Source: a virus
IMG/VR virus record: IMGVR_UViG_3300008107_008233
Location: 1 to 57,523 of that record
Length of the DNA stretch: 57,523 bases
Strand: one strand, 5' to 3'
Within the stretch, counting starts at the first letter, position 1, and each line of letters begins with the position of its first letter. Below are positions 12,901 through 55,588 of this stretch, in pieces. Position numbers and translations under genes: made by a program. The notes beneath the pieces are model-generated. The model made no database searches. It was not told the origin of the DNA and saw only the letters and a list, made by a program, of their open reading frames with translations.

Positions 12901-14321
12901 AAGGTACTCAAGGAAATCAAGGTGCAATAAACAATAATCAAGGAACTCAAGGATCTCAAGGAACTCAAGGATCTCAAGGTACTCAAGGTGATCAGGGGAC
13001 ACAAGGACTTCAGGGTCTTCAGGGTGCTCGTGGAAATTTCCAAGGCACTCAAGGTGCTCAAGGTGCAATAAACAATAATCAGGGTACTCAAGGAACACAG
13101 GGTACTCAAGGTAATCAAGGTCTTCAGGGTGGGGGAAGTCAAGGTTCTCAAGGAACTCAAGGTGCAATAAACAACAATCAAGGTACTCAAGGTACTCAAG
13201 GTGCAATAAACAACAATCAAGGTACTCAAGGAAATCAAAGTACTCAAGGTACTCAAGGAAGACAAGGAACTCAAGGACTTTCTAATCAAGGTACTCAAGG
13301 CACTCAAGGTGCAATAAACAACAACCAAGGTACTCAAGGAAATCAAGGTACAGTAAACAACAACCAAGGTACTCAAGGTGTTCAAAGTGCCCAGGGTAAT
13401 CAAGGACTTCAGGGAGGTGGAGGTCAAGGAACTCAAGGTCTCCAGGGATCTTTAAGTAATTTTCAAGGAAATCAAGGTCTTCAAGGATCAATAAACAATA
13501 ATCAAGGTACTCAAGGTACTCAAGGTAATAATGGGGGGCAGGGTTCCCAAGGAATATCAAATCAGGGTGTTCAGGGTGTTCAGGGCAACTTGAGCAATAA
13601 TCAGGGTACTCAAGGTACTGAAGGACCTCCTGGGAATTTCCAGGGCACTCAAGGTATTCAGGGTGTTCAGGGACTTCAAGGTGTGGGTTCACAAGGACCT
13701 CAAGGTGCTCAGGGTATCTTAAGTAATAATCAAGGAACTCAAGGCACTCAAGGTGCAATAAACAATAATCAAGGAACTCAAGGAACTCAGGCTACTCAAG
13801 GTCCTCAAGGAAGGCAGGGTACTCAAGGTCTTTCTAATCAAGGTGTTCAGGGATCATTAAGTAACTTTCAAGGTACTCAAGGTACTGAAGGACCTCCTGG
13901 GAATTTCCAGGGTACTCAAGGTATTCAAGGTTCTGGGGGTCAAGGTGCTCAAGGACTTCAAGGACTTCAGGGTGGAGGAACTCAAGGAACTCAGGGTATT
14001 CAGGGAATCTTTGGTCCAGCAACAATTCCAGGAATTACAACTACATCTGTATACACTTTGAAACTTGCGGATAATGGTAAGCACGTAAGTATTTCTACAG
14101 GTGGAATTATTGTTCCCCCAAATATTTTTAGTGCTGGTGAAAATGTTGTAATGTTTAACAATTCTCTATATAAACAAAATATCACCGCTGGAACTGGCAT
14201 AACTATGTACAATGCCGGTACTGCCTCTACTGGAAATAGAACTCTTTCTGGAAGAGGGGTTGCAACTGTTCTTTGTTTAAGTCCAAACGTATTTGCAATT
14301 TCTGGAGCTGGATTAACATAA
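9963..14321 (+). CDS. Collagen-like tail fibre protein, 1452 aa
   Basis: Residues 1-320 form a beta-rich head with repeated GIATIN/GVATI-type strands. Residues about 322-1348 are collagen-like Gly-X-Y triplets in which Y is nearly always Gln and X is often Thr (GTQ, GDQ, GLQ). The first block (322-610) is broken at intervals by a two-residue unit (GL, GV or GS before the next Gly). A folded insert (about 613-667, YKQSDPPTGVQEGDIWVDI) interrupts it. The second block is broken by seven-residue units such as GSLSNFQ and GAINNNQ. A beta-rich tip (1350-1452) ends the protein. Collagen-like phage fibres form trimeric triple helices; the tip would bind the host or the next protein. There is no proline in Y and few cross-linkable lysines. 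Confidence 0.88.
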   Translation: MTKYTSGRQRDLQIGIKSYTEGSTALEVIGNVGIGTTLATSDLTVVGDGLFTGVVTARKFVGEVEITTIDFENLNVKNLTVTGFATVNQSLTTGVVISGVATINQSITTSSIIGFASVGVATITTLDADYIDAFIVTGRTRLSTGETGINITQDTISGPSIIYIDPAGVGVNTGIVRIKGDLYVDGTEFIVDSTTIELADFNVGIATTVGSNVLLDGAGIGIGSTNIRKYFTYSYTSDSLKSSENFDIGVGKTYNIGGTEVLTSTRLGSGVTDSNLRNANPGIISDRPAIYAAETDRINDYLLLYDDSQVSLRKISLQEASIQGVQGTQGVQGLQGFQGLQGDQGTQGTQGDQGVQGAQGLGFQGTQGSQGTQGDQGTQGLQGTQGLGAQGTQGIQGEQGTQGTQGDQGTQGAQGLGVQGSQGTQGDQGTQGTQGDQGTQGAQGLGVQGSQGIQGEQGTQGVQGVQGSGVQGTQGTQGDQGTQGLQGVGSQGAQGIQGEQGTQGLQGLQGDQGTQGLQGTQGLGSQGTQGIQGEQGTQGTQGEQGTQGTQGLGVQGSQGTQGIQGDQGTQGLQGTQGLGIQGTQGTQGTQGIQGSVNNFQGTQGAQGTQGLQGDLGRLRVYKQSDPPTGVQEGDIWVDIDNGVIYTYYADTDTSSAQWVEFGPDPTGPQGVQGLQGNQGNQGNQGKQGTQGFQGNQGLQGVQGTQANQGTQGFQGNQGTQGPLSNFQGTQGPLSNFQGTQGTQGTQGTQGAQGTQANQGTQGSLSNFQGVQGSLSNFQGTQGRQGLTGRGNDGPQGISGEFAGQGVQGSLSNFQGVQGRAGIVTGQGAQGLTGDAPDNQGTQGTAGLPGDFQGTQGPLSNFQGAQGPRGGGQGTQGAQGRDGLFAGQGAQGPLSNFQGLQGAKNDNQGTQGAKNDNQGTQGAKNDNQGTQGTAGNDGTPGDFQGTQGFQGTQGVGSQGVQGISGGGQGTQGVQGNLSNNQGTQGNQGAINNNQGTQGSQGTQGSQGTQGDQGTQGLQGLQGARGNFQGTQGAQGAINNNQGTQGTQGTQGNQGLQGGGSQGSQGTQGAINNNQGTQGTQGAINNNQGTQGNQSTQGTQGRQGTQGLSNQGTQGTQGAINNNQGTQGNQGTVNNNQGTQGVQSAQGNQGLQGGGGQGTQGLQGSLSNFQGNQGLQGSINNNQGTQGTQGNNGGQGSQGISNQGVQGVQGNLSNNQGTQGTEGPPGNFQGTQGIQGVQGLQGVGSQGPQGAQGILSNNQGTQGTQGAINNNQGTQGTQATQGPQGRQGTQGLSNQGVQGSLSNFQGTQGTEGPPGNFQGTQGIQGSGGQGAQGLQGLQGGGTQGTQGIQGIFGPATIPGITTTSVYTLKLADNGKHVSISTGGIIVPPNIFSAGENVVMFNNSLYKQNITAGTGITMYNAGTASTGNRTLSGRGVATVLCLSPNVFAISGAGLT
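10925..14010 (+). repeat. 9-bp based tandem repeats coding Gly-X-Gln
   Basis: Long arrays of units such as CAAGGTACT and CAAGGAACT, with longer copies nested inside. An example is three successive 30-bp units coding GAKNDNQGTQ at about 12664-12753. Near-identical arrays recur in the gene at 15225. Such DNA is prone to slippage and recombination, so fibre length should vary between isolates. Confidence 0.9.
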
Positions 14322-15224: not shown

Positions 15225-17627
15225 ATGCCCACACTTAATTTTCCTGATAATCCATCTATAAATGATATTTACGCTATAGGAAATAAGCGTTGGATTTATA
15301 ATGGAGAGGGGTGGAAATTATTACCACAAGATCCTATAATTGGACCCCAAGGAATTCAGGGAATACAAGGTGTTATTGGTATTCAGGGTATAATAGGACC
15401 TGCAGGAACATCGGTTAATATTGTTGGGTCGATTACATCAAAAACATCATCAATTGGATCTACTGTCTTAACGTTTAATGATACGGTTTATCCTTGGTAT
15501 CCACCAGGATTTGGAGATGGTGTACTTGCCCAAGATACTGGTAATTTATGGGTTTTTGATGGAACTATTTGGGTTAATGTTGGAAAAATTACTGGACCAC
15601 AAGGTACTCAGGGACGTCAAGGACTTCAGGGTGTAGGTTCTCAAGGAACTCAAGGAACCCAGGCTACCCAAGGTCCTCAAGGAAGGCAGGGTACTCAAGG
15701 TATTCAGGGTCTTCAAGGTACTCAAGGTGTTGGATTTCAAGGAACCCAAGGTACTCAAGCTAATCAAGGTACTCAAGGTCTTCAGGGTGGATTAAGTGCC
15801 CAGGGAACACAGGGTACTCAAGGTATTCAAGGAAGGCAGGGTACTCAAGGTCTTCAGGGTGGATTAAGTGATCAGGGAACACAGGGTACTCAAGGTATTC
15901 AAGGACTTCAGGGGCAAACGGGACCTCAAGGAACTAGAGGATCTCAAGGATTCCAGGGAACTCAAGGAGTTCAAGGTACTCAAGCAAATCAAGGTACTCA
16001 AGGATTCCAGGGAACTCAAGGATTCCAGGGAACTCAAGCAACTCAAGGTACTCAAGGTACTCAAGGTATTGCCGGTACGACACAAGGTACTCAAGGTGTT
16101 CAAAGTGCTCAAGGAGTTCAAGGTACTCAAGGTACTCAAGGTATTGCCGGTACGACACAAGGTACTCAAGGTGTTCAAAGTGCTCAAGGTCTTCAAGGAC
16201 TTCAGGGAACTCAAGGACTTGGAACTCAAGGAAACCAAGGTACTCAAGGTGTTCAAAGTGCTCAAGGAGTTCAAGGTACTCAAGGTACTCAAGGATTCCA
16301 GGGAACTCAAGGATTCCAGGGAACTCAAGGTGCTCAAAGTGCTCAAGGAGTTCAAGGTACTCAAGGTACTCAAGGTATTGCCGGTACGACACAAGGTACT
16401 CAAGGTGTTCAAAGTGCTCAAGGTCTTCAAGGACTTCAGGGAGTTGGATCTCAAGGTACTCAAGGACTTCAAGGTCCTCAAGGTCCTCAAGGACTTCAAG
16501 GTCTTCAAGGAGTTGGATCTCAAGGTACTCAAGGTCTTAAGGGTGATCAAGGTGCTCAAGGACTTCAAGGTCTTCAAGGAGTTGGATCTCAAGGCACTCA
16601 AGGTCGTCAGGGTCTTCAAGGTCCTCAAGGACTTCAAGGACTTCAGGGAGTTGGATCTCAAGGCACTCAAGGACTTCAAGGATCTTCCGATGGCGGATTA
16701 ACAGTCTTTAATGATATAACTACAAATCAAACTTGGTCTGTTGGCATTCTTTCCGTAACATCTGGAATTGCCAAAACAGCACATGTTTCTTCTACAAAAC
16801 TTCAATTCAATCCTTCGACTGGAGCACTTGGAATTGGTACAATAATTGATATTGTTCCTTACGATACTTTAAATTCCGGTACTTTATCCTGGGAAGGTTC
16901 TGCTGGACAGTTATTCAGTATTACAAATAATCTTACTTCCGGAAGTATTTTCAGTGTTAATGATGTTTCTGGAATTCCTGCTATTGATGTCGATGCTAAT
17001 GGGACTATTGAACTTGGTCCTTTTGGTGGAAACATTGGAGTAGGAACTACAAATCCAACTCAAAAACTTGATATTGTTGGTAATATAAGATTGAGGAATG
17101 GTCTTTATGATTTCTTCAATAATGTTGGTGTCGCCGGTAGTGTTTTAATCTCTACTGGTGCTGGCGTGAGTTGGGTAAACTTTAGTGGTGGTGCAACGCT
17201 TCAAAACGATACGACAACAAATGCAACCTGGTATCCAACTTTATCTAGTGCTACTACCGGTACTTATACCACTGCATATGTTTCTAATACAAAACTTCAA
17301 TTTAATGCTTCTACCGGAACTTTATCAGCAACAGTATTCACATCACTATCTGATGAAACTCAAAAGACTAATATAAGACCAATTGAAAATGCTCTTGATC
17401 TTGTAAAACAAATGAACGGTGTTAAATACGATTGGAAAGATGAGCATAGTCAATCTTCAGTTGGTGTGATCGCACAAGAAGTAGAAAGAGTTCTTCCAGA
17501 AGTTGTAACTACGAATGATCAAGGATTGAAGACAGTCTCATATGGAAATATTGTTGGTGTATTAATAGAAGCAATTAAAGAACAGCAAATACATATTGAA
17601 GAATTGGAGAGAAAATTGAATGCCTAA
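15225..17627 (+). CDS. Collagen-like tail fibre with C-terminal S74 chaperone
   Basis: An 800-residue fibre. The N-terminal cap (1-40, ending W[14 protein letters not shown]) is followed by a short collagen stretch. A small domain (about 63-125, [15 protein letters not shown]) precedes a collagen-like block of Gly-X-Gln triplets (125-485). A beta domain with two copies of an NDxTTNxTW...TKLQFNxSTGxL unit runs to about 705. The end is an intramolecular chaperone of the endosialidase/peptidase S74 type (about 705-800: [40 protein letters not shown], coiled-coil C-terminus). The Ser before Asp in SDE is the expected self-cleavage residue. The chaperone trimerises the fibre and is then cut off. 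The end overlaps the next gene by 8 bases. Confidence 0.92.
15600..16680 (+). repeat. Collagen-coding tandem repeat array
   Basis: The same CAAGG-based units as in the 9963 gene. It includes three near-identical copies of a unit containing [17 protein letters not shown] (near 16070, 16140 and 16376), evidence of internal duplication. Confidence 0.85.
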
Positions 17628-19986
17628 TCAGTTTTTTTCACCAGAAGGAGACCTTGAAAATTATTTTGTAGATGAGTACTGGTTAATTGATCAGTATATT
17701 GGAGATCAATTGTGGTCATGGGGTGAGGGAGCTCGCGGTTATCTTGGAAATGCTAGTATTAATTCTTACAATCCCACACCAGTTACAACTAGTTCTGGAG
17801 GAACCAATTGGAAACAAGTGGATGGCGGACAAAGACAAAGTGCTGGAATAAAACTTGATGGAACTTTATGGGTTTGGGGAAATGGTGATGCTGGAAGACT
17901 CGGAAACAATTCAAACATACTCAATAATTCCACTCCAATCACTACTTTTGCTGGAGGAACTAACTGGAAGCAAATAGAGATGAAAGGACTTTTTGCTGCC
18001 GCAATCAAGACTGATGGAACTTTATGGACTTGGGGGTATAATGGTAGAGGGCAACTTGGAATAGGAAATAATACAATTTCTTTTGTATCCACTCCTGTTA
18101 CTACACTCGCAGGAGGAACCAACTGGAAACAAGTAAGTGTTGGATATTATCATGCGTCGGCAATCAAGACTGATGGAACCTTGTGGACTTGGGGTGATTA
18201 TTTTAATGATTTTGGAATGTTGGGTAAAGGTGATGATTATTCAGTAAATAAAACTAAACCTGTTCCTATTACCACAACAGGTTGGGCAGACACTGCAACA
18301 ACAAATTCAGAAGATTTATATACAATATCTGCAGGATATTCTTTTTCTTCAGCAATCAAGACCGATGGAACCTTGTGGACTTGGGGTAATGGGAATAGTG
18401 GACAACTTGGAAATGCTCAAACAATCAACAGGTCCACTCCAGTCACCACTTTTGCCGGAGGGACTAACTGGAGACAAGTAAGTTCTGGAGGAAATTTTGA
18501 TTCCTCATGTGCAGGCATTAAAACTGATGGAACTTTATGGGTTTGGGGGAATGGGAGATTTGGAATACTTGGAAATGCAATAATCACAGGTATTATATCT
18601 ACTCCAGTCACCACATTTGCAGGAGGAGCAAACTGGAAACAGGTGAGTGTTTCAAGTTCTCATACTGTAGCAATTAAGACTGATGGAACCCTATGGACTT
18701 GGGGTGCTGGAACTTCTGGGCGACTTGGAAACGCAGTAACAACTAATACATCTACACCAGTCACAACATTTGCCGGAGGAATAAACTGGAAACACTCTGC
18801 AGCAATATTTAGTGCTACGTTGGCAATCAAAACCGATGGAACCCTATGGACTTGGGGCAGTACAAGTTATGGGCAACTTGGAAATGCAACTGGACCAGGT
18901 GGTATTAGATCTACTCCAGTCACCACATTTGCCGGAGGAACTAATTGGAAACAAGTGGGTGAAGGTGGAAATACCGGAACATCTACGGCAATCAAAACCG
19001 ATGGAACCCTATGGACTTGGGGTTTTGGACTTTCTGGGGCACTTGGGAATGGAGTAGGTTATGTTGGTGCTGTATCAACCCCAATCACCACTTTTGCAGG
19101 AGGAACCAATTGGAAACAAGTCGCAAATGGAAGAAATACGACTGTTGCAGTCAAGACTGATGGAACTCTATGGACTTGGGGTCGTGGAACTGATGGAGAA
19201 CTTGGAAATGCAGTTGATGGTATTGCATCAACCCCAGTTACCACCTTTACTGGAGGCACTGATTGGAAACAAGTGAGCGGTGGTTTCAGGCATGTTATTG
19301 CACTAAAAGGAACTTCACCAAATCTGCAAATTTTCTCATTTGGATCCGCTCGTGATGGGCAAATGGGAGATGGGTTTAATATACAAACCAATTATGCTCC
19401 AGGACAAGTTTTTGGAAATGCTAACGATTGGAAAGAAGTTAGTTCTGGATATCATAATAATGCAGCAATCAAGACCGATGGAACCTTATGGACTTGGGGA
19501 TATAATTATGCTGGAAATATTGGAGTCGGTGATTCCATTAATCGAAATACTCCAATCACCACATTTGCCGGAGGAACCAATTGGAAACAAGTTAGTGTTG
19601 GAGGTTATTTTGATAATTATTTGTGCATGGCAGCAATCAAGACCGATGGAACTTTATGGACCTGGGGCAGTCAAAATGCAGGAATGTTGGCAAATTTTGT
19701 AAATTCTTTTACATATGTCAGTACTCCAATTACAACCTTTGCCGGAGGAACAAATTGGAAATATGTTGATATTGGAAATGAGCATGTATCGGCAATCAAG
19801 ACCGATGGAACTTTGTGGATGTGGGGTGAAAATTTTTCTGGACAACTTGGAAATGGTGATGCTTTAACAAGATCAACTCCGGTCACTACATTTGCTGGGG
19901 GAACTAATTGGAAACAAGTAAGAGCTGCTGGTTATCATACTTTAGCAGTACAATCTGGTATCAATGCCGACTACCCACTCTCATAA
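17620..19986 (+). CDS. RCC1-repeat beta-propeller protein 1 (788 aa, 14 blades)
   Basis: After a short N-terminal cap, about 50-residue repeats fill the protein. The repeat core is [18 protein letters not shown]...[18 protein letters not shown], an RCC1-type propeller blade. I count 14 blades: a first one (QLWSWG), 12 with (K)xDGTLW, and one variant ([10 protein letters not shown]...FSFG, about 558-576). A unique linker ([14 protein letters not shown], about 221-236) follows blade 4; the variant is the eleventh blade. Seven blades therefore lie between linker and variant, with 4 before and 3 after. That is what one seven-bladed propeller inserted in another would look like. Its place after a fibre gene suggests a virion fibre or receptor-binding role; other RCC1 roles seem unlikely in a phage late operon. 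Confidence 0.85.
17700..19970 (+). repeat. RCC1-coding repeats, array 1
   Basis: Units of about 150 bases sharing cores such as ACTGATGGAACTTTATGGAC and GCAGGAGGAACCAACTGGAA. The same units recur in the arrays at 20890 and 32880. Confidence 0.85.
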
Positions 19987-20761: not shown

Positions 20762-23700
20762 ATGCCAGATAATATTCAAACTAATTTTAAAGATAATAAT
20801 GGTGTTGATTTAGGGTCTAAATTAATTACCAAGGATTATTTGATTAGTGTTTATCCAGGTATTGCAGAAAATCTTGGAATTAGTCCAGAATTGTGGGGTT
20901 GGGGTGTTAATGGACCTAATTTTATTCTTGGAACCGCTGATACTTTAGCAAGAAGTACTCCAGTCACTACATTTGCTGGAGGATTTAGATGGAAACAAGT
21001 CAGTTCTGGAGATTTTTATACGGCAGCAATCAAGACAGATGGAACTTTATGGGTTTGGGGTGTTGGAAATACTGGACAACTTGGAAATGCAGACATAACT
21101 TCAAGATCCACTCCAGTCACAACCTTTACCGGAGGAACTAACTGGAAATCTGTTGCATGTGGAAAGGATCATGCTACAGCAATCAAAACCGATGGAACTC
21201 TATGGGTTTGGGGTTCTGTTTACCTTCTTGGTAATGGGATAGGATCTAATACTGATCCCAATAACACCGTTGTTACTAATATATCTACTCCAGTTACCAC
21301 TTTTGTTGGAGGAACAAACTGGAGACAAGTTTCTGCGGCAAGATATGGTACTGCAGCAATTAAGACTGATGGAACTCTGTGGACATGGGGACCTACAGGA
21401 TTTGGAGAGGTATCTGATAAAGCAATTCTTGGTCATGAAAAAATTATTCATACTATTTCAACTCCAATAACTACATTTTCCGGAGGAACTAATTGGTTAA
21501 ATGTACCTAGTGTACCTAGTCCTGAAGAGGAAAATCTTTATACAATCACCGGAAGTCGCTTTCATGCTGCTGCAATTAAAACTGACGGAACTCTATGGAC
21601 CTGGGGAAATAATACTACTGGTCAGTTGGGAAATAATAAGGTAGAATTGGTATTATCATCTCCTGGCAGTACTCCATCAACTACCTTTGCCGGAGGAACT
21701 AACTGGAGACAAGTCTCTTCTAATTCACATTCTACAGAATTTTATACAACAGCAATCAAAACCGATGGGACATTATGGGCTTGGGGTCAAAATAATAGTG
21801 GGCAACTTGGATTTCCGACAAATTATATTTCAACTCCAATAACTACATTTGCCGGAGGAAATAACTGGGCAGATACTCCTACAACAAATGCCGAAGACCT
21901 TTATACCTTGAGCGGAGGGACAAGTTTTTCTGCAGCAATCAAGACCGATGGAACTCTATGGACTTGGGGTCTTGGAACTTTTGGACGACTTGGAAATAAA
22001 TCTGTATTAGGTACTATATCTACTCCAATAACTACATTTTCTGGAGGAACTAATTGGAAACAAGTAAGTTCTGGAGGAGATTATACGGCAGCAATCAAAA
22101 CTGATGGAACCTTATGGACTTGGGGTACTGCAGCAACCGGGTTACTTGGAAATGGCGTAACAACAGGGAGTATATCCACTCCAGTCACTACTTTTGCTGG
22201 AGGAACCGACTGGAAACACGTAAGTACCAGTGGTGCGGGTAGTAATATGTCAGCAGTCAAAACTGATGGAACCCTATGGATGTGGGGTTTTGGAACTGCT
22301 GGTCGACTTGGGAATGCAACTATATTAGGTAATAGATCCACTCCAGTCACAACATTTGCTGGAGGAACCGACTGGAAACAAGTTTCCAGTAATGTAAATC
22401 ATACAGCAGCGGTTAAGACTGATGGAACTCTATGGACTTGGGGTAGTGGAATTTCTGGGGCTCTTGGAAATACGGTTATAACAGGTAGTATATCCACTCC
22501 AGTCACCACCTTTGCCGGAGGAACAGACTGGAAACAAGTTTCTTCTGGGAGTGGTCTTACTGCAGCAGTCAAAACCGATGGAACCTTATGGATATGGGGA
22601 TCTGGTGGTAGTGGAGCACTTGGAAATGCAGTTACGACAGGGAGTATATCAACTCCTATTACAACATTTACTGGAGGGACCAACTGGAGACAAGTAAGTT
22701 CTGGTGGTTCTCATACAGCAGCAGTTAAGACTGATGGAACCTTATGGACTTGGGGTACTGGAGCTAGTGGGAGACTTGGAAATGCGATTGCAACAGGTAA
22801 TATATCAACTCCAATTACCACTTTTGTTGGAGGAACCAACTGGAAACAAGCAAGTGCTGGTGCTTCTCATACACTTGCCTTAAGAGATGATGGTGTGAAT
22901 AGACAAGTATGGTTATTCGGAGATAATTCCAGTACTCAATTGGGAAATTTTATTACCACTATAGTAGCACCTACTAAAGTTTCTAATGATACAAATTGGA
23001 AACAAATATCTGCAGGAAGTTTATTTACTGGTGCAATCAAAACTGATGGAACTTTATGGACTTGGGGTAATAATACTGCTGGAGAACTTGGAAATGCAGG
23101 TATATCCCTATCCAATAGGTCTACTCCAGTCACCACATTTGCCGGAGGAACCGACTGGAAACAAATTAGTTGTGGATGTAATAAGTTCGTTTCAGCAATT
23201 AAAACCGATGGAACTTTATGGACTTGGGGTAATCCCAGTTATGGAGTACTTGGAATTAATAGTATCTTTGGTGTTAGATCAACTCCAGTCACAACATTTG
23301 CAGGGGGAACCAATTGGAGACAAGTTTCTTCCGGGGGTTATCATACTGCAGCAATTAAGACTGATGGAACTCTGTGGGTGTGGGGAAATAATTTAACGGG
23401 AAAACTTGGAAATGGTACTAATTTTAACACCGCCATCACCCCTATCACAACATTTGCCGGTGGAACTAACTGGAAACAAGTAGCTGCCGGTTCTCGTCAT
23501 ACTGCAGCAATAAAAACTGATGGTACTCTGTGGACATGGGGATTTAATGGATATGGAGAATTAGGATCAGGTATTTTCCAAGGATACGGGCAGGCAAGCG
23601 TAAGCACTCCCATTACTACTTTTGCCGGAGGAACTAATTGGAGTCAAGTTTTTTGTCCTCAATATACTCTGAGTAGTAGTTTTGATAGTAATGCTTCCGA

Positions 23701-26700
23701 ATATACAATTGCAATGAAAACTGATGGAACCTTGTGGACATGGGGTCGTAATGCTACTAGCGAGTTGGGTATGTTTAATAATTTATATGTACCTGTTTTG
23801 CAATCCGATGCAACAAATTGGAAACAAGTGAGTATGGGTGATATACATGCATCCGCAGTCAAAACCGATGGAACCTTATGGACTTGGGGATCAAACCGTA
23901 ATAAAGCACTGGGAGATCCAAATATATCTTCTGGGTATAATACTTATGGTTATATTGCCGTAGATCCAAGAGCAAGATTTACTCCGATTACCACCGTTGT
24001 CGGTGGGACTAATTGGAAACAAGTAAGTGTTGGATATAATCATACATCAGCAGTCAAAACTGATGGAACCTTATGGATGTGGGGAAACAATAATTATGGA
24101 CAACTTGGTAGAGCACTTGATGGAATTGGTAAACAATTTAGAGGAAATATAGACTTTCCACTTGAAGTTAATCCCAGAGAAAATTGGAATGATACTCAAA
24201 TAATAAATCTGGAAGATTTATATACAATATCCGTTCAAGATACAAATTTTAATGGAGACAGTAACTCCTTTGCCGCAATTAAAAAAAATGGAACCCTATG
24301 GACATGGGGAGGAGGAAATTACGGGCAACTTGGAAATGCTTTGCGTCTTGAAGCTCAAGCAAATACTCCAGCTACTACATTTGCCGGGGGAACCAATTGG
24401 AAGCAAATAAGTACCTCATATGCCACTTCTGCAGCAGTCAAAACTGATGGAACTCTATGGGTTTGGGGTAAAAATTATCATGGTGAACTTGGAATTAATA
24501 GTCTTGGAACTAGATCTACTCCGGTTACCACTTTTGCTGGTGGAACCAACTGGAAACAAGTTTCGGTTGGATATGGTGTTATGGGAGCAGTCAAAACTGA
24601 TGGAACACTATGGACTTGGGGTAATAGTGATAGTTTAAATGGGACACTTGGTAGATATTCTATTAATTATTTTGATGCAATTGTATCAACACCAATCACA
24701 ACATTTGCCGGAGGAAATAACTGGGCAGATACTCCTACAACAAATGCCGAAGATCTTTATACACTGTCTGCTGGGGGATCTTTTGGTAGTTATTATTCAG
24801 GACCAAATAGTGTGGCAATCAAGACCGATGGAACCTTATGGACCTGGGGATATTCTTATGCTAAAATACACCCACTACTAAGATACATCAATAAAAATTA
24901 TAATCAACTTGGAGTTGATGGAATATGTGATGAAAATGGAAGATTGCCAGGAACTCTCAGCTTTAATTCCGATCCTTATACTGGGAAAAGAATTACCACG
25001 ACAAGTGGCAGTGGTACAGTAACTCCTATCGCAAATAATTTATTAGGACCAGCATCTTTAACAATAGATGAGACTCTGCAACCGCCTTATGGTGGATATG
25101 ATGATGGATTTTGGGTTTTAGAATTGCCATTTAATATTTCTTTTAATGGAAAGACTTATAGAAGAGTTTGTCCAACAACAAATCATTTCATAACTTTTGG
25201 AGAAGGTCATCAAGGATTAAGCTTAAGTGTTGGAAATCCATCACTTCCCAAAATAATGATAACTGCTACTGATGGAAGCGTACATAGATTATGTTATGGA
25301 CCAGAAGGGACGGCACCTAATAGAACCTATAGAATAAGGTGTGAAGGAACTTATATGATATCAGATGATCTTGATAATCCCAATATGGTTTATGAGATTA
25401 CTTTTTATGAAAATGTTCCTAATCAAATTGATATTCAAATCGGAGAAAATCAAAATAAAATTTTAGATGTTGGGAGTGAAGAAACGGCAAATTACATATC
25501 AATTCCAACAACCACTTTTGCCGGAGGAATAAATTGGAAACAAGTCAGTGCTGGTGATAGTCATACAGCAGCAATCAAAACCGATGGAACATTATGGGTT
25601 TGGGGTGATACTTATTATGGAAAACTTGGAAATGCTCCTTCTGTTAGAAGTGGTGGAACTGGAGGAAGAACACTCTACTTTAAATCTACTCCTATCACAA
25701 CATTTGCCGGAGGAACCAATTGGAAACAAGTAAGTGCAGGAAATAATCATACAGCAGCAATCAAGACCGATGGAACCTTATGGACTTGGGGAAATAGCAG
25801 ATCTGGGCAATTAGGAAATGCTGTACTGTTGACTTTCGGTTATGAGATAAGCACTCCAATTACCACCTTTGCTGGTGGGACAGATTGGAAACAAGTTACT
25901 TGTGGGAAGGATAATACTGCAGCAATCAAAACTGATGGAACTTTATGGGGATGGGGTACTGCAAATTTTGGAAGACTTGGAACTAATGATACTGGAGCAT
26001 CTCCAATTAGATCCACTCCAGTCACCACCTTTGCAGGAGGAACCGATTGGAAACAGGTGAGTTCTGGGTACAATTGTATGGCAGCAGTCAAAACTGACGG
26101 AACTTTGTGGTTATGGGGACAAACAAATGAGGGACAACTTGGAACTGGTGAAATATTTTCTCCAACACTTCAGTCATATAAATTAACGCCCATTACAACA
26201 TTTGCCGGAGGAACCAACTGGAAACAAGTAAGTGTTGGTGATAGACATGTTGGAGCAGTTAAAACCGATGGAACCTTATGGGTGTGGGGTAATGGAATTA
26301 AAGGACAACTTGGAAATACTAATACTATTAGCAATGTATCCACTCCAGTCACCACATTTGCTGGGGGAATTAACTGGAAACAAGTAAGTGCTGGTGGATC
26401 TCATACACTTGCTTTAAGAGATGATGGTGTGAATAAACAGTTGTATGTATTTGGTAGTGGTTCATTGGGTGTGCAGTTGGGTAATAATCATACTCCAGCT
26501 ACTACATTTGCAGGAGGAATAAATTGGAAACAAGTTTATATGGATAGTGGTGGATCTGCAATCAAAACTGATGGAACCTTATGGACTTGGGGGTCTAATG
26601 CTCGTGGACAGCTTGGAACTGGTGATAGAACCAATAGAAGCACTCCAGTCACAACATTTGCCGGTGGGACCAATTGGAAATATACTGAAGTTGGTATTGC

Positions 26701-28441
26701 ACTCAAGACTGATGGAACCTTGTGGACTTGGGGTAGACAGACATCCGTAGATCTGGCAAGGTCTTATCTTGACTATAGACCTACTCCGGTTACTACATTT
26801 GCCGGAGGAAATAACTGGGCAGATACTCCTACAACAAATCCAGAAGATCTTTATACAATAGCAGCATCTTCGAACATGTGTTCAGCAATCAAGACCGATG
26901 GAACTTTATGGGTTTGGGGTAATGGGCAATTTGGTCTTGGAACTGCGGCAACATCAAACACCATACCTGGCATAAGCACTCCAGTCACCACCTTTGCCGG
27001 AGGAACCAATTGGAAACAAGTCAGTGGTGCTATAGGTAACCTTGATTATATGACAGCAATCAAAACCGATGGAACATTATGGACATGGGGAAGCAATAAT
27101 GCTGGACAACTTGGAACTAATGATAATAATGTAACCAGTAAATCAACTCCAGTCACAACATTTGCAGGAGGAACCGACTGGAAGCAAGTAAGTTCTGGAA
27201 ATCAACATACTGCAGCAATCAAAACTGATGGAACCTTATGGACCTGGGGTTCGGCATACAATGGAAGGCTTGGAAACTTTGCATCTTTCGGTTTTAGATC
27301 TACTCCAGTCACCACATTTGCTGGGGGAATTAACTGGAAACAAGTAAGTGCTGGAGGTGCTCATACTGTAGCAATCAAGACCGATGGAACTTTATGGACT
27401 TGGGGTACTGGGATTGGAGGAAGACTTGGAAATGCAATAACATCTAATACTAGTGTAATATCTCCAGTCACAACATTTGCAGGAGGAACCGACTGGAGAC
27501 AAGTAAGTGCTGGATATGATTATACGGCAGCAATCAAGACCGATGGAACTTTATGGACTTGGGGTAGAAATCAAGTTTATGGAAGTATTCAAGGGAAATT
27601 AGGAACTAATGATACTACTGATAGATCCACTCCAGTCACCACCTTTGCCGGTGGAACTAACTGGAAACAAGTAAGTGCTTCAAGAGGTCATACAGCAGCA
27701 GTCAAGACCGATGGTACTCTATGGACTTGGGGTACTGGAACTTCAGGACAACTTGGTACTAATGATACAACCACCAGATCTACTCCAGTCACCACCTTTG
27801 CCGGAGGAACTAATTGGAAGCAAGTAGATGGAGGAACTAATCATACTGTAGCACTGAAAGACGATGGTGTAAACAAACAATTATGGTTATTTGGTAGTAA
27901 TGCAAATACTCAATTGGGACTTTTTATTGATGAAAGAAACATACCACTCACTACATTTGCTGGTGGAACTGATTGGAAATCCATAAACTATAAATCTGCG
28001 ATAAAAACAGATGGAACTCTATGGAGTTGGGGCAATCCAATAAGTATTCCAACAACTACATTTGCAGGAAATAATTGGTCGCAGACTAAAATTATCAATA
28101 GTAGTAGTATAGCACTCAAGACAGATGGAACTCTTTGGATTTGGGGTTTTTCGGAAACCGCATATTCTAAAATTATGATATATGAAAATGCCATACCCAA
28201 AACTACATTTGTCGGTGGAACTAACTGGAAACAAGTGAGTAATGGATATGATTATACGGCAGCAATCAAAACCGACGGAACTCTTTGGACTTGGGGTTAT
28301 GGTGGTCCTGAACTTGGATTAAATGATATTTTTTCAACAAGGTATACTCCAGTCACCACCTTTGCCGGAGGAACCAATTGGAAACAAGTAATGGTTAGTG
28401 AGTCAGGTAATACTCTAGCACTAAAATCTGAAGAATTTTAG
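20762..28441 (+). CDS. Giant RCC1-repeat protein 2 (2559 aa, 42 blades)
   Basis: One of the largest ORFs expected in such a phage. I count 42 RCC1-type blades: a first blade (ELWGWG), 38 with the (T/N)DGTLW or NGTLW core, and three ALRDDGVN/ALKDDGVN variants (about residues 704, 1882 and 2362). Five linker segments with an (E)xLYT ending, best as [16 protein letters not shown], occur near 244, 368, 1139, 1318 and 2016. Read as opening marks, they allow six propellers of exactly seven blades, nested in one another. Residues about 1398-1576 are a different domain (YDDGFWVLELPFNISFNG, TEGTAPNRTYR-like, NMVYEITFYE), a beta-sandwich found in other phage fibres, inserted in blade 22. It is probably a fibre or virion-surface protein. 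A small upstream SD-poor start at 20762 is the only one available. Confidence 0.85.
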   Translation: MPDNIQTNFKDNNGVDLGSKLITKDYLISVYPGIAENLGISPELWGWGVNGPNFILGTADTLARSTPVTTFAGGFRWKQVSSGDFYTAAIKTDGTLWVWGVGNTGQLGNADITSRSTPVTTFTGGTNWKSVACGKDHATAIKTDGTLWVWGSVYLLGNGIGSNTDPNNTVVTNISTPVTTFVGGTNWRQVSAARYGTAAIKTDGTLWTWGPTGFGEVSDKAILGHEKIIHTISTPITTFSGGTNWLNVPSVPSPEEENLYTITGSRFHAAAIKTDGTLWTWGNNTTGQLGNNKVELVLSSPGSTPSTTFAGGTNWRQVSSNSHSTEFYTTAIKTDGTLWAWGQNNSGQLGFPTNYISTPITTFAGGNNWADTPTTNAEDLYTLSGGTSFSAAIKTDGTLWTWGLGTFGRLGNKSVLGTISTPITTFSGGTNWKQVSSGGDYTAAIKTDGTLWTWGTAATGLLGNGVTTGSISTPVTTFAGGTDWKHVSTSGAGSNMSAVKTDGTLWMWGFGTAGRLGNATILGNRSTPVTTFAGGTDWKQVSSNVNHTAAVKTDGTLWTWGSGISGALGNTVITGSISTPVTTFAGGTDWKQVSSGSGLTAAVKTDGTLWIWGSGGSGALGNAVTTGSISTPITTFTGGTNWRQVSSGGSHTAAVKTDGTLWTWGTGASGRLGNAIATGNISTPITTFVGGTNWKQASAGASHTLALRDDGVNRQVWLFGDNSSTQLGNFITTIVAPTKVSNDTNWKQISAGSLFTGAIKTDGTLWTWGNNTAGELGNAGISLSNRSTPVTTFAGGTDWKQISCGCNKFVSAIKTDGTLWTWGNPSYGVLGINSIFGVRSTPVTTFAGGTNWRQVSSGGYHTAAIKTDGTLWVWGNNLTGKLGNGTNFNTAITPITTFAGGTNWKQVAAGSRHTAAIKTDGTLWTWGFNGYGELGSGIFQGYGQASVSTPITTFAGGTNWSQVFCPQYTLSSSFDSNASEYTIAMKTDGTLWTWGRNATSELGMFNNLYVPVLQSDATNWKQVSMGDIHASAVKTDGTLWTWGSNRNKALGDPNISSGYNTYGYIAVDPRARFTPITTVVGGTNWKQVSVGYNHTSAVKTDGTLWMWGNNNYGQLGRALDGIGKQFRGNIDFPLEVNPRENWNDTQIINLEDLYTISVQDTNFNGDSNSFAAIKKNGTLWTWGGGNYGQLGNALRLEAQANTPATTFAGGTNWKQISTSYATSAAVKTDGTLWVWGKNYHGELGINSLGTRSTPVTTFAGGTNWKQVSVGYGVMGAVKTDGTLWTWGNSDSLNGTLGRYSINYFDAIVSTPITTFAGGNNWADTPTTNAEDLYTLSAGGSFGSYYSGPNSVAIKTDGTLWTWGYSYAKIHPLLRYINKNYNQLGVDGICDENGRLPGTLSFNSDPYTGKRITTTSGSGTVTPIANNLLGPASLTIDETLQPPYGGYDDGFWVLELPFNISFNGKTYRRVCPTTNHFITFGEGHQGLSLSVGNPSLPKIMITATDGSVHRLCYGPEGTAPNRTYRIRCEGTYMISDDLDNPNMVYEITFYENVPNQIDIQIGENQNKILDVGSEETANYISIPTTTFAGGINWKQVSAGDSHTAAIKTDGTLWVWGDTYYGKLGNAPSVRSGGTGGRTLYFKSTPITTFAGGTNWKQVSAGNNHTAAIKTDGTLWTWGNSRSGQLGNAVLLTFGYEISTPITTFAGGTDWKQVTCGKDNTAAIKTDGTLWGWGTANFGRLGTNDTGASPIRSTPVTTFAGGTDWKQVSSGYNCMAAVKTDGTLWLWGQTNEGQLGTGEIFSPTLQSYKLTPITTFAGGTNWKQVSVGDRHVGAVKTDGTLWVWGNGIKGQLGNTNTISNVSTPVTTFAGGINWKQVSAGGSHTLALRDDGVNKQLYVFGSGSLGVQLGNNHTPATTFAGGINWKQVYMDSGGSAIKTDGTLWTWGSNARGQLGTGDRTNRSTPVTTFAGGTNWKYTEVGIALKTDGTLWTWGRQTSVDLARSYLDYRPTPVTTFAGGNNWADTPTTNPEDLYTIAASSNMCSAIKTDGTLWVWGNGQFGLGTAATSNTIPGISTPVTTFAGGTNWKQVSGAIGNLDYMTAIKTDGTLWTWGSNNAGQLGTNDNNVTSKSTPVTTFAGGTDWKQVSSGNQHTAAIKTDGTLWTWGSAYNGRLGNFASFGFRSTPVTTFAGGINWKQVSAGGAHTVAIKTDGTLWTWGTGIGGRLGNAITSNTSVISPVTTFAGGTDWRQVSAGYDYTAAIKTDGTLWTWGRNQVYGSIQGKLGTNDTTDRSTPVTTFAGGTNWKQVSASRGHTAAVKTDGTLWTWGTGTSGQLGTNDTTTRSTPVTTFAGGTNWKQVDGGTNHTVALKDDGVNKQLWLFGSNANTQLGLFIDERNIPLTTFAGGTDWKSINYKSAIKTDGTLWSWGNPISIPTTTFAGNNWSQTKIINSSSIALKTDGTLWIWGFSETAYSKIMIYENAIPKTTFVGGTNWKQVSNGYDYTAAIKTDGTLWTWGYGGPELGLNDIFSTRYTPVTTFAGGTNWKQVMVSESGNTLALKSEEF
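20890..28430 (+). repeat. RCC1-coding repeats, array 2
   Basis: About 7.5 kb of units of roughly 150 bases, closely related to arrays 1 and 3. Several successive units are nearly identical (for example 22080-22800). Confidence 0.85.
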
Positions 28442-32808: not shown

Positions 32809-35800
32809 ATGCCAACATTTTATAACTTTACACAAGACGGTCTTAGATATAGTTTTGATGATGTTTTTGTTAAGGCAGATCCGTTTCGTCAAGGAAATTT
32901 GTGGAACTGGGGTAGGGGCGTAGCAGGAGCTCTTGGAAATTATACTGGTCCTTCTTTTGTAAGTACTCCGACTACTACATTTGTTGGTGGTAGTAATTGG
33001 AAACAAGTAAGTACCGGAGGTCTTCATACAGTAGCAGTCAAAACCGATGGAACCCTATGGACTTGGGGATATAATCGTGATGGGCAACTTGGAAATGCAT
33101 CAACAACCATTAGAGATACTCCAGTAACTACATTTTCTGGAGGAACTGATTGGAAACAAGTAGAAGGTGGATGCACTCATACAGTAGCTATTAAAATTGA
33201 TGGGACTTTATGGACCTGGGGGCAAAATGATCAGGGACAACTTGGAGTATATGGTAGGGTTAATTCATCTACTCCAATCACTACTTTTGTTGGAGGAACT
33301 AATTGGAAGTCAATTGCTGCCGGATATTCGTATTCTTCGGCAATTAAAACCGATGGAACTTTGTGGTCTTGGGGGTATGCTTATTTTGGTCAATTAGGTA
33401 CAGGACCAACTTATACACCTATTAGATCCACCCCACAGACAACATTTGCCGGAGGAACTAACTGGGCAGATACTCCAACAACTAATCCTGAAGATCTTTA
33501 TACCTTAAGTGCTGGAAATAATCATACGGCAGCAATCAAGACTGATGGAACCCTATGGACTTGGGGTGAAGCAAATGTAGGAAAACTTGGAAATGGTGCT
33601 ACAGCAACTTCTGGGCAAAATTTTGTAACCACTCCAATCACCACCTTTGCTGGAGGGACCAATTGGAAACAAGTAAGTGGTAGTGGAGATTATAAGGCAG
33701 CAATTAAAACCGATGGAACCTTATGGACTTGGGGTTTTGGAAGTTCTGGTCAACTTGGAAATGCAGTTACAACAATTAGTATATCAACTCCTATTACAAC
33801 ATTTGCCGGAGGAACCAACTGGAAACAGGTAAGTGGTGGAGGTTCGACTATGGCAGCAATCAAAACTGACGGAACCTTATGGACTTGGGGTAATGGAACT
33901 AATGGGCGACTTGGAAATGGAGTAACAACAGGTAATATATCAACTCCAATCACCACATTTGCAGGAGGAACTAATTGGAAGCAAGTAAGTACTGGTGGTG
34001 CTCATACCACAGCAATCAAAACTGATGGAACCTTATGGGCTTGGGGTCGTAGTTTATTTGGAGGACTCGGAAATGCAGCAGTAGCAAATAGTTCCACTCC
34101 AGTCACCACCTTTGCTGGTGGAACCAATTGGAAACAAGTGAGTTCTGGTGGTTATCATACAGCAGCAATTAAAACTGACGGAACTCTTTGGATTTGGGGT
34201 GGTGGTCCAATTGGAACCCTTGGAAATACTGATGGGGGTAATAGTTCCACTCCAGTCACCACCTTTGCTGGTGGAACCAATTGGAAACAAGTGAGTGCCG
34301 GAAATAGACATACTGCGGCAATCAAAACCGATGGTACTCTATGGACTTGGGGCATTGGTGAAACAGGAGAACTTGGAAATGCTAATGGATTTCTAGATTT
34401 TGACACCCCTACCGAGTATTTTTCCGCATCCACTCCAATCACAACATTTGCCGGTGGTAACAACTGGACACAAGTCATTGCTGGAAATTCTCATACGACA
34501 GCTTTGAACAATAATAATCAATTGTATACTTGGGGATATGCTCGATATGGTCAACTTGGAGATACATTTTATGTTCAAATTAATGATATTCCGAGAAAAG
34601 TAGGAGGAGACACTAACTGGAAACAAGTATCTTGCTCATATCATTCCTCTGCAGCAGTCAAAACCGATGGAACTTTATGGACTTGGGGAGCTAATGGGCA
34701 AGCTCAACTTGGAACTTCTAAATTATATCAGAGTAGTGCCGAACCAATCACCACCTTTGCCGGAGGAACAGACTGGAAACAAGTCAGTGCTGGTGGATAT
34801 TACACCGTAAATATGATGGCAGCAATTAAAAATGATGGAACCCTATGGACTTGGGGTAATGGGTATTATGGAATACTTGGAAATGCAAAGGCACCTCTTT
34901 CTAGTGCTCCCGATATTGAACTTTATGTATCCACTCCGATCACCACCTTTGCCGGAGGAGCAACTTGGAAACAAGTGAGTTGTGGTGGATATCACATGGC
35001 AGCAGTTAAAACCAACGGAACTCTTTGGACTTGGGGAAGTGATACACAAGACCAATTGGGCACTGGATATCAATTTGCTCAAGCAGGCATTACTTATGCA
35101 TCCACTCCGGTTACAACATTTTTGGGTGGAAGTAATTGGAAGTCCGTTGGTTCTTCTGGAGGATATCGTGTTTGTGCCATAGAAAGCGTTGATCCTACTT
35201 ATAATCTACCGGATTTGTTTAGTTTATTTACTTGGGGTTATGGGCAACTTGGACAACTTGGAAATAATGATGTATCGGGTGATAGATCCACTCCAGTCAC
35301 CACATTTGCTGGAGGATCTAATTGGAGACAAATAAGTTCTGGGAGAGAACATGTAGCAGCAATCAAGATAGATGGAACTCTATGGACTTGGGGAAGAGGA
35401 TTTAATGGAGTTCTTGGAACTAGAGATACGATTAATAGATCAACTCCAGTAACTACATTTGCTGGAGGAACTAATTGGAAGCAAGTTAGTGTTGGAAATT
35501 TATCTCACATAGCAGCGATAAAAACCGATGGAACTTTATGGACTTGGGGTAATGGACAATCTGGGGTTCTTGGAAATGGAATTACGACAGGTATTAGATC
35601 TACTCCAGTTACCACCTTTGCTGGTGGAACTAACTGGAAGCAAGTGAGTGCTAAAAATGCTCATACTGCAGCAATTAAGACTGATGGAACTCTGTGGATT
35701 TGGGGTCCGAGAGATTTTGGAAAACTTGGAAATGCAACTATATCAGGTAGCGTATCTACTCCAGTCACAACATTTACCGGAGGAACCAATTGGAAACAAG

Positions 35801-36306
35801 TCAGTGTTGGAGGTGATCATACAACTGCAATCAAGACCGATGGAACTTTATGGACTTGGGGATTTGTTTACGGTAGTGTTTCTTCTGGGTTTAATGTAAC
35901 TATATCAACTCCGGTCACCACATTTGCTGGAGGAACTAATTGGAGATATGTCAGTGCTGGAGATTTACATTCAGCAGCAACCAAGACCGATGGAACTTTA
36001 TGGACCTGGGGTTATGAAAGTGAGGGGCAACTTGGAACTAATGGTACGATCAATAGTAATAGTTACACCCCAGTAACTACATTTGCCGGAGGAACTAATT
36101 GGAGACAAGTCAGTGCTAATAGAAATAGTACAGCAGCAATTAAGACTGATGGAACTCTATGGACTTGGGGAGATAATGCCTTTTTACAACTTGGAAATGC
36201 TACTACTACTAATAGATCAACTCCAGTTACAACATTTGCCGGAGGTACTAACTGGGAACAAGTCAGTTCTGGAAGTCGCCTTGTAGCAGCAATTGCAAAA
36301 AATTAA
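32809..36306 (+). CDS. RCC1-repeat beta-propeller protein 3 (1165 aa, 21 blades)
   Basis: Same repeat family as the 788- and 2559-aa proteins. I count 21 blades: a first blade (NLWNWGRG), then the (D/N)GTLW type, plus two variants ([12 protein letters not shown], about 561-575; and [11 protein letters not shown], about 799-810). The [14 protein letters not shown] linker (about 218-232) follows blade 4, and seven blades run to the first variant. Three then complete an outer set, and the last seven form a separate propeller whose opening blade is the LPDLFSLF variant. The total is again a multiple of seven. It probably forms part of a fibre. It lies 16 bases after the YkgJ-like gene without a clear promoter. 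Confidence 0.85.
32880..36295 (+). repeat. RCC1-coding repeats, array 3
   Basis: Units of about 150 bases, shared with arrays 1 and 2. Array 3 is separated from array 2 by the 4.3-kb glycosyltransferase operon, so recombination between arrays could delete or swap that operon. Confidence 0.85.
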
Positions 36307-55071: not shown

Positions 55072-55078
55072 TTACCCA

Positions 55079-55109
55079 AATACCCGGAAAAATTTCCGGG
55101 TATTTTTTT
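55079..55109 (+). terminator. Strong intrinsic terminator
   Basis: A 12-bp perfect stem (AATACCCGGAAA / TTTCCGGGTATT) with a 2-base loop runs into a T tract, 8 bases after the stop. Confidence 0.92.
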
Positions 55110-55153: not shown

Positions 55154-55182
55154 TTGACTATATAAGATGAAAGGGATATAAT
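55154..55182 (+). promoter_or_regulatory. Near-consensus sigma70 promoter
   Basis: TTGACT (55154-55159), 17-base spacer, TATAAT (55177-55182). RNA would start near 55189, just before the riboswitch-like leader. It is the best host-type promoter in the window, so the unit is probably early. Confidence 0.85.
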
Positions 55183-55189
55183 ATATCTC

Positions 55190-55295
55190 TAACGTTCATC
55201 TGGAGTATCCAGACGGAAGTAAGCCGACTCGGAACGGATCGTTCATTCTCTATTTGCGAATAGAGAACGCAAAAGCCGACTGAAGGAACGCTCTT
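55190..55295 (+). promoter_or_regulatory. Glutamine-riboswitch-like leader (glnA / Downstream-peptide type)
   Basis: The outer helix CGTTC (55193-55197) pairs with GAACG (55286-55290). It encloses a hairpin TCTGGA-GTA-TCCAGA (55199-55213), the conserved block ACGGAAGTA (55213-55221), and on the 3' side GCCGACTGAAGGAACGC (55275-55291). These pieces match the glnA and Downstream-peptide RNA cores, which bind L-glutamine in cyanobacteria and their phages. Two extra hairpins lie inside: GAACG-GAT-CGTTC (55232-55244) and TTCTCTATT-TGCG-AATAGAGAA (55246-55267). The motif directly precedes a micro-ORF with a strong SD, as in the Downstream-peptide class. Whether the long insert keeps ligand binding is unknown. 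Confidence 0.8.
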
Positions 55296-55322
55296 TAACC
55301 TAAACCATTAAGGAGGAACCTA

Positions 55323-55436
55323 ATGTCACAAGTAGCAATGAAAAAACTTAATTTTCTGCAACTAATTAAAGAACAAAAACAAAAAGAAGAACGTCGTCAT
55401 CAGGCACAATTAGCGCAACTAATCGGAGCAAAGTAA
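55323..55436 (+). CDS. Micro-protein controlled by the riboswitch-like leader
   Basis: 37 codons, with AAGGAGG (55310-55316) six bases before the ATG. The peptide is basic and helical, rich in Gln/Lys/Glu (QLIKEQKQKEERRHQAQL), with the end GAK. Downstream-peptide RNAs of cyanobacteria and phages precede short ORFs of this type; some host examples are glutamine synthetase-inactivating factors. This one is shorter, and I see no convincing IF7/IF17 motif. A role in nitrogen metabolism is inferred from the leader only. Confidence 0.75.
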   Translation: MSQVAMKKLNFLQLIKEQKQKEERRHQAQLAQLIGAK

Positions 55437-55522
55437 TGGCACAGTTCATAGTCACAACGAGTGCCGGAATCGCTCTATTGACTATTCTTTTATCAATGTA
55501 CATTCAGTGGCTTTATAAGTAA
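55436..55522 (+). CDS. 28-residue membrane micro-peptide
   Basis: The ATG overlaps the previous stop (TAATG). After MAQFIV comes a single hydrophobic stretch (TTSAGIALLTILLSMYIQWL) ending YK. It looks like a tiny one-span membrane peptide and shares the riboswitch transcript, with a terminator behind it. No known family. Confidence 0.55.
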   Translation: MAQFIVTTSAGIALLTILLSMYIQWLYK

Positions 55523-55530
55523 ATGAACTT

Positions 55531-55558
55531 AGGGGGGATTGACTTCCCCCCTTTTTTT
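55531..55558 (+). terminator. Intrinsic terminator closing the riboswitch unit
   Basis: A stem of six G-C pairs (GGGGGG, 55532-55537, with CCCCCC, 55546-55551), extended by A-T pairs, is followed by seven T. Confidence 0.92.
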
Positions 55559-55588
55559 GTATAAAATATTAGTAACTTTATTTTGAGT

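Follow-up and report, generated by a model that had tools for sequence, protein, structure and literature searches.

We propose that the leader RNA of a small transcription unit in a viral genome fragment is a nested, strand-swapped pair of glutamine aptamers working as a translational ON switch, and we consider this reading likely. The analysed DNA is a 57,523-base IMG/VR record, which we call the window. Comparison with related leaders shows, at the sequence level, that a complete glutamine-I (glnA) aptamer is formed by the 5' half of one aptamer-like copy (A) paired with the 3' half of another (B). By the same comparison, the P3 helix of this outer aptamer is capped by a circularly permuted second module, made of the 3' half of A and the 5' half of B; the strand-swapped architecture is found widely among T4-like cyanophages; and small ORFs can be housed in either P2 loop.

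The transcription unit and its setting

We take the window to be a fragment of a T4-like cyanomyovirus, from psbA, transaldolase (talC), glutaredoxin and thyX ORFs recognised by eye from their translations. Positions 55154-55558 form a self-contained unit with a promoter, a glutamine-aptamer leader, two micro-ORFs and a terminator (Table 1). The first-pass annotation had claimed such a unit, and both ends were borne out, with the promoter at 55154-55182 and a T-run terminator at 55531-55558. This promoter is the strongest of four found (2.1 expected in shuffles), and a similar promoter-like sequence lies upstream of many relatives' leaders. Transcription is expected to start at about 55189-55190, a few bases short of the aptamer, whose first nucleotide is 55193. 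The unit sits between two terminators (55078-55109 and 55531-55559) with its own promoter, and since the first of these ends the upstream gene, it is transcriptionally separate.

Elsewhere in the window, a psbA-like ORF is directly followed by an ORF resembling a homing HNH endonuclease (912-2647, the latter at 2111-2647, both identified by eye). Very long ORFs of up to 2559 aa with RCC1-like repeats (17620-19986, 20762-28441 and 32809-36306) and stretches with collagen-like QGTQG repeats (9963-14321 and 15225-17627) probably encode tail fibres or adhesins. The interval from the fibre genes to glutaredoxin (28490-53463) is densely packed with apparent glycosyltransferase, methyltransferase and 2OG-oxygenase genes.

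Table 1. Features of the unit and its immediate surroundings (window coordinates)
Feature	Position	Strand	Remarks
Terminator-like hairpin of upstream gene	55078-55109	+	12-pair stem, then T run
Sigma-70-type promoter TTGACT-17 nt-TATAAT	55154-55182	+	11/12 consensus matches
Outer P1 5' strand CGUUC + A6 (copy A 5')	55193-55198	+	pairs with 55286-55290
P2A hairpin	55199-55213	+	covarying stem
Core 1 of outer aptamer, CGGAAGUA	55214-55221	+	G55216 = position 19, linchpin to C55291
Outer P3 5' strand AGCCG	55222-55226	+	pairs with CGACU 55277-55281, one C.A mismatch
Inner permuted P1	55231-55245	+	GGAACG (55231-55236), GAU loop, CGUUC (55240-55244); G55237 = inner position 41
P2B hairpin	55246-55267	+	site holding the ORF in most relatives
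Inner core CGC	55268-55270	+	C55270 = inner position 19, pairs with G55237
Outer P3 3' strand CGACU	55277-55281	+	
Core 2 + outer P1 3' strand, GAAGGAACG + C41 (55291)	55282-55291	+	
SD-sequestering hairpin CUCUUUAA / UUAAGGAG	55291-55315	+	C55291 also belongs to the aptamer linchpin; candidate expression platform
SD AAGGAGG	55310-55316	+	
37-aa ORF	55323-55436	+	MSQVA remnant of DUF4278 ORF fused to helical micro-ORF MKKLNFLQLIKEQKQKE..., phrog_545 N-terminal module
28-aa single-TM micro-ORF	55436-55522	+	start overlaps preceding stop; homologue MANLIVSMSAGIVLLTIILSMYIQWLYK in L391
Intrinsic terminator	55531-55559	+	G/C-rich with T run

Aptamer motifs and Rfam matches

With the Rfam covariance models, RF01739 (glutamine-I, glnA) matched positions 55238-55294 at 37.8 bits (cut-off 35), with a second match directly upstream at 25.3 bits, below the cut-off. 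It was the only family over its cut-off in the whole 57.5 kb. RF01704 (glutamine-II, Downstream-peptide) reached 17.5 bits for a cut-off of 33, which ruled out membership of the leader in that family. Thus, the covariance search proposed together with the first-pass annotation upheld the glnA side of its glnA/Downstream-peptide likeness and not the other side. The CGTTC/GAACG helix and the conserved core motifs that it had named (ACGGAAGTA and GAAGGAACGC) were all found in the leader, and GACTGAAGGAACGS occurs once in the window and never in shuffles.

The two RF01739 matches were initially read as tandem copies, with copy A at 55193-55237 and copy B at 55240-55291. The RF01739 core, ACGGAAGUA ... 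GAAGGAACGC with P1, P2, P3 and the pair 19-41, is complete in the A 5' half combined with the B 3' half, and in neither copy A nor copy B alone. The first-pass annotation had described an insert of two hairpins between the core halves. Both hairpins are real, GAACG-GAU-CGUUC (55232-55244) and 55246-55267; they belong to a duplicated, strand-exchanged aptamer and do not form an arbitrary insert. The comparative data support and extend this description: by covariation in 256 leaders, the insert is a circularly permuted aptamer-like module.

Covariation supports the strand swap

The ligand-site pair in the glutamine-II crystal is C19:G41 (PMC6698751), and in single glnA aptamers of the cyanobacterial hosts G19-C41 lies within one aptamer in 30/30 cases. 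In the window, positions 19 and 41 are both G in copy A and both C in copy B, so neither copy is able to form its own ligand-site pair; the cross-copy combinations A19-B41 and B19-A41 do pair. Among a first set of 149 leaders from phages and IMG/VR contigs, A19-B41 was C-G in 120 and G-C in 29, with no exceptions. We enlarged this to 256 phage leaders, those with both P2 helices after targeted scans for rare states, where it was C-G in 143 and G-C in 113, again with no exceptions. The inner pair B19-A41 was C-G in 207 of these, G-C in 21, U-A in 2, G-U in 5 and mismatched in 21, so that about 8% lack it in a sample where A41 other than G was sought on purpose. The tandem alternatives pair in only 134/256 and 135/256 leaders. 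The combination seen in the window, G.G with C.C, occurs in 88 leaders (window included), and C.C with G.G in 16 more.

On a tree of the downstream flanks, A19 and B41 changed together in 6/6 supported independent comparisons (p = 0.031), and the tandem partners A19/A41 and B19/B41 did not. This final tree uses flanks only and more loci; a first one that included the leader columns held too few independent events.

The helices behave in the same way. Outer P3 joins AG-Y-CG to CG-A-CU with a C.A mismatch in most members; in the AGUCGC clade all five pairs are perfect, and copy A cannot form a P3 of its own. Pair 5 of this helix is G-C in 212 leaders, A-U in 17, G-U in 16 and U-A in 6. Scans free of P1 gave ten loci with an inner P1 of GCAACG (A 3' strand) and CGUUGA (B 5' strand), two of which also have an outer P1 of CGUUU (A 5') and AAACG (B 3'). 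In all ten, the P1 changes compensate each other if the strands are swapped and disrupt pairing if the copies are tandem; the ten loci may represent one or two events. Most loci were fetched by patterns fixing parts of P1, and independent events are modest in number; a search for P1 variants with GGAACH returned nearly all noise.

For 34 natural short-loop leaders, the swapped structure has 97.2% of cells paired and both ligand-site pairs formed in 34/34, against 90.8% and 22/34 for the tandem structure. RNAalifold picked the outer P1 and the inner hairpin unprompted. For the window, the swapped fold has an energy of -22.3 kcal/mol without P3 and -20.9 with it, compared with -18.0 for the tandem fold. 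The minimum-energy fold of the 152-nt leader has no outer P1 (z -1.6), in energy models that ignore ligand and tertiary contacts.

The inner permuted module

The inner module, GGAACG-G(A/G)N-CGUUCA-P2B-CGCA, is the glutamine PK core in a circularly permuted order. The PK-helix nucleotides are present with compensatory changes, and the glutamine-contacting nucleotides of the solved glutamine-II structure are retained in the module. The variable positions of the module (5:36) belong to the small number that are less than highly conserved in glutamine-II, and a glutamine-II aptamer cut in its linker still binds glutamine as two strands, two copies having exchanged strands in the crystal (PMC6698751). 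The inner module may plausibly bind glutamine. Its closing loop has 3 to 6 nt, never fewer; since it can be as short as 3 nt and loop E is absent, the module may also be purely structural.

Small ORFs in the P2 loops and downstream

In 153/256 leaders, the P2B loop has about 140-200 nt and carries an ORF inside a conserved stem, of which pairs 1-4 were paired in 104/105, 104/105, 104/105 and 105/105 of the first cases, with changes on both sides. A long insert lies in the P2A (outer) loop of 61/256 leaders, and in P-SSM4 and P-HM1 it is an annotated ORF (T4-GC 429). The window leader is insert-free in both loops. The P2B ORF usually starts at an AUG in the P2B 5' strand and ends at the UGA of CUGAAGG, inside core 2, in 97/105 cases. 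Its product, phrog_504, is short, has two conserved cysteines and begins with a hydrophobic stretch. Purifying selection acts on it: at 70-85% identity, the median dN/dS over inner codons only is 0.20. Within the AGUCGC clade, 52/58 leaders with the ORF have an SD-like GGAG in the inner hairpin loop, compared with 0/20 leaders lacking it.

On the flank tree of the 256 leaders, in-loop ORF presence changes many times (54 for P2B and 38 for P2A), a pattern suggestive of cassettes exchanged through recombination at the repeated aptamer sequences, or of poor resolution in the tree. In some AGUCGC-clade members (L006, L574 and others), a further hairpin that looks conserved, CGGAUCC...GAGAAGGUU, lies some 10-50 nt past the aptamer and ahead of the SD; it is perhaps a different expression platform.

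Downstream of the leader, both micro-ORFs of the first-pass annotation (37 and 28 aa) exist and have homologues at the same place in relatives. The next ORF is a YRG (DUF4278-type) peptide in 139/149 relatives. The order in the related locus L391 –leader, DUF4278-type ORF, MKKLNFLQLIKEQKQKEQ..., MANLIVSMSAGIVLLTIILSMYIQWLYK, terminator– is likely ancestral, and relative to it the DUF4278 body is deleted in the window. A Pfam search gave no match to the DUF4278/IF17-like (PF14105) YRG..Y domain in the 37-aa peptide. The helical part of this ORF matches the phrog_545 N-terminal module (E 5e-4); compared with L391 it has 8 synonymous and 2 non-synonymous codon differences. For the 28-aa ORF the corresponding counts are 3 and 6, so its coding status is argued only from position and hydrophobic pattern. 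Pfam, NCBIfam and phage tblastn returned no match that gives the window peptides a known function. DUF4278 is the N-terminal part of the glutamine synthetase inhibitor IF17 (PMC6316151); only this domain points to glutamine synthetase as a possible peptide target, and the window's own peptide lacks it.

Alternative explanations

Two ordinary glutamine-I aptamers in tandem, each binding alone as a pseudo-cooperative doublet, would account for the separate RF01739 match of each half; 157 glutamine doublets have been reported (PMC9481103), and the four P1 strands are identical in most members, so that A:A and B:B helices are possible. We rejected this initial reading on pair covariation and regard it as very improbable: the ligand sites are G.G and C.C in the 88 leaders that include the window and C.C and G.G in the other 16, a P3 internal to copy A cannot form in the AGUCGC clade, and the P1 changes at the ten loci disrupt the tandem helices but preserve the swapped pairing. 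In a doublet each copy is its own complete aptamer, which the ligand-site mismatches in the window and about half of the 256 leaders, together with P1 covariation, contradict. The identity of the P1 strands also fits a strand-exchange switch, in which a tandem-like isomer forms first during transcription as the OFF state and the rearranged swapped fold is ON. The A 3' strand is transcribed ahead of the B 3' strand, so A5':A3' can form first, and tandem isomers with a mismatched ligand site could not bind. In two loci with divergent P1 (L574 and L592), however, the tandem isomer is one pair weaker per copy and thus not conserved, and we think such a switch unlikely.

A stronger contender, to which we give somewhat less than an even chance, is that the swapped outer aptamer is the only sensor and the inner module a structural relic that caps P3 and elsewhere carries an ORF. 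The lack of loop E agrees with this, as does the inner linchpin, which tolerates mismatches (C.A 12, C.U 5, others) where the outer one has none. However, rather than drifting, the inner linchpin and inner P1 continue to show covariation (C-G/G-C/U-A), and the inner pairs free to vary are those free in glutamine-II (PMC6698751). Decay is scarcely credible: the riboswitch would be functionless in the window phage because the DUF4278 gene normally controlled is deleted, and the window does lack the YRG domain present in nearly all relatives. Yet aptamer nucleotides, promoter, SD hairpin and terminator are all intact, the retained helical ORF shows the mostly synonymous differences given above (8 against 2), and two loci with short non-YRG peptides (L464 and L471) also keep an intact aptamer.

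Proposed mechanism and significance

In the strand-swapped ON switch that we favour, L-glutamine would bind the outer site, and perhaps the inner one too, cooperatively via the shared P3. Binding would pull C55291 into the G55216-C55291 pair and weaken the SD-hiding hairpin, and the 37-aa and coupled 28-aa peptides would be switched on. The SD hairpin and the aptamer have one nucleotide only in common: in the clade of the window, the hairpin begins with C41 of copy B and is conserved with a median pairing probability of 0.97 (G19 group). In a folding model with no ligand term, the SD is closed when the leader is free, and its AGG part opens when the swapped fold is imposed with C41 withheld. 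This use of the aptamer's C41 and the partial opening of the SD in the model suggest that the leader is a glutamine ON switch; glutamine-I and -II are published ON switches (PMC6316151). The virus would thus probably turn its small proteins on at high host glutamine.

Where relatives carry a nested ORF, this folding would bury the ORF's SD and start codon in the inner helices, and the two ORFs would then respond oppositely. The full form of this idea is a nested, circularly permuted aptamer whose two sites, built from each other's halves, both bind glutamine, with loop ORFs in related phages making folding and translation mutually exclusive and giving opposite control of two peptides; we put it only just short of even.

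The leader is a candidate means for abundant ocean viruses to read the nitrogen state of their host. The ORF-in-aptamer form offers a simple system for the competition between ribosome and aptamer folding. Moreover, the strand swap alters the proper counting and modelling of tandem glutamine elements in cyanophages, because an Rfam-type model gives the two halves separate scores or treats them as one match with an insert.

Comparison with known systems

In a scan of cellular genomes, true elements were confined to marine MAG/SAG contigs and a single contig of a Nonlabens assembly. Three cellular contigs were inspected; one has a thyX-like gene and another a ribonucleotide-reductase-like gene, so they are likely phage DNA. 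Two phages carry a strong manA RNA (RF01745, 184-188 bits) no more than about 0.5 kb from the glutamine element, on its downstream side in one genome and on its upstream side in the other (L008:1938-2123 in P-RSM6, L011:1015-1200 in P-SSM4).

To our knowledge, no natural riboswitch has been described in which one aptamer, circularly permuted, is nested in another. Our literature search, with Ames and Breaker 2011 and Klahn 2018 outside its scope, found the swap, the permuted inner module and the loop ORFs undescribed. Glutamine riboswitches, doublets and cyanophage glnA elements are already known (PMC2864571, PMC9481103, PMC9964418), and S-PM2 is listed among RF01739 homologues (PMC6806525). 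The glnA element of cyanophage S-CREM1 is the same element, given in the accessible part of its report (PMC9964418) as one 99-nt RF01739 match of 44.0 bits spanning both copies. Software had therefore already seen the composite span; that part makes no mention of the inner module, the strand swap or the ORF-in-loop forms.

We class the window element as a variant of glutamine-I. Its outer aptamer has the P1 CGUUC/GAACG, P2, ACGGAAGUA, P3, GAAGGAACGC and the G19-C41 linchpin of RF01739, but its P3 is not a simple hairpin and encloses a circularly permuted aptamer-like module. With glutamine-II (RF01704), the inner module shares the PK-helix nucleotides C1, G2, G18, C19, C39, G40 and G41, and the window's relatives control short DUF4278 peptides as Downstream-peptide RNAs do; the window element differs in its score (17.5 bits vs 33), in lacking P2/pseudoknot and in its permuted strand order. 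Tandem glutamine doublets (PMC9481103) also repeat the aptamer sequence twice in a row, whereas the window copies are interlocked and each site takes one half from each copy. A further parallel is the split, strand-exchanged glutamine-II of the 6QN3 crystal (PMC6698751), with a two-strand site and domain exchange between two copies; those are a crystallisation dimer and an engineered split, whereas in the window the arrangement is fixed in one natural transcript.
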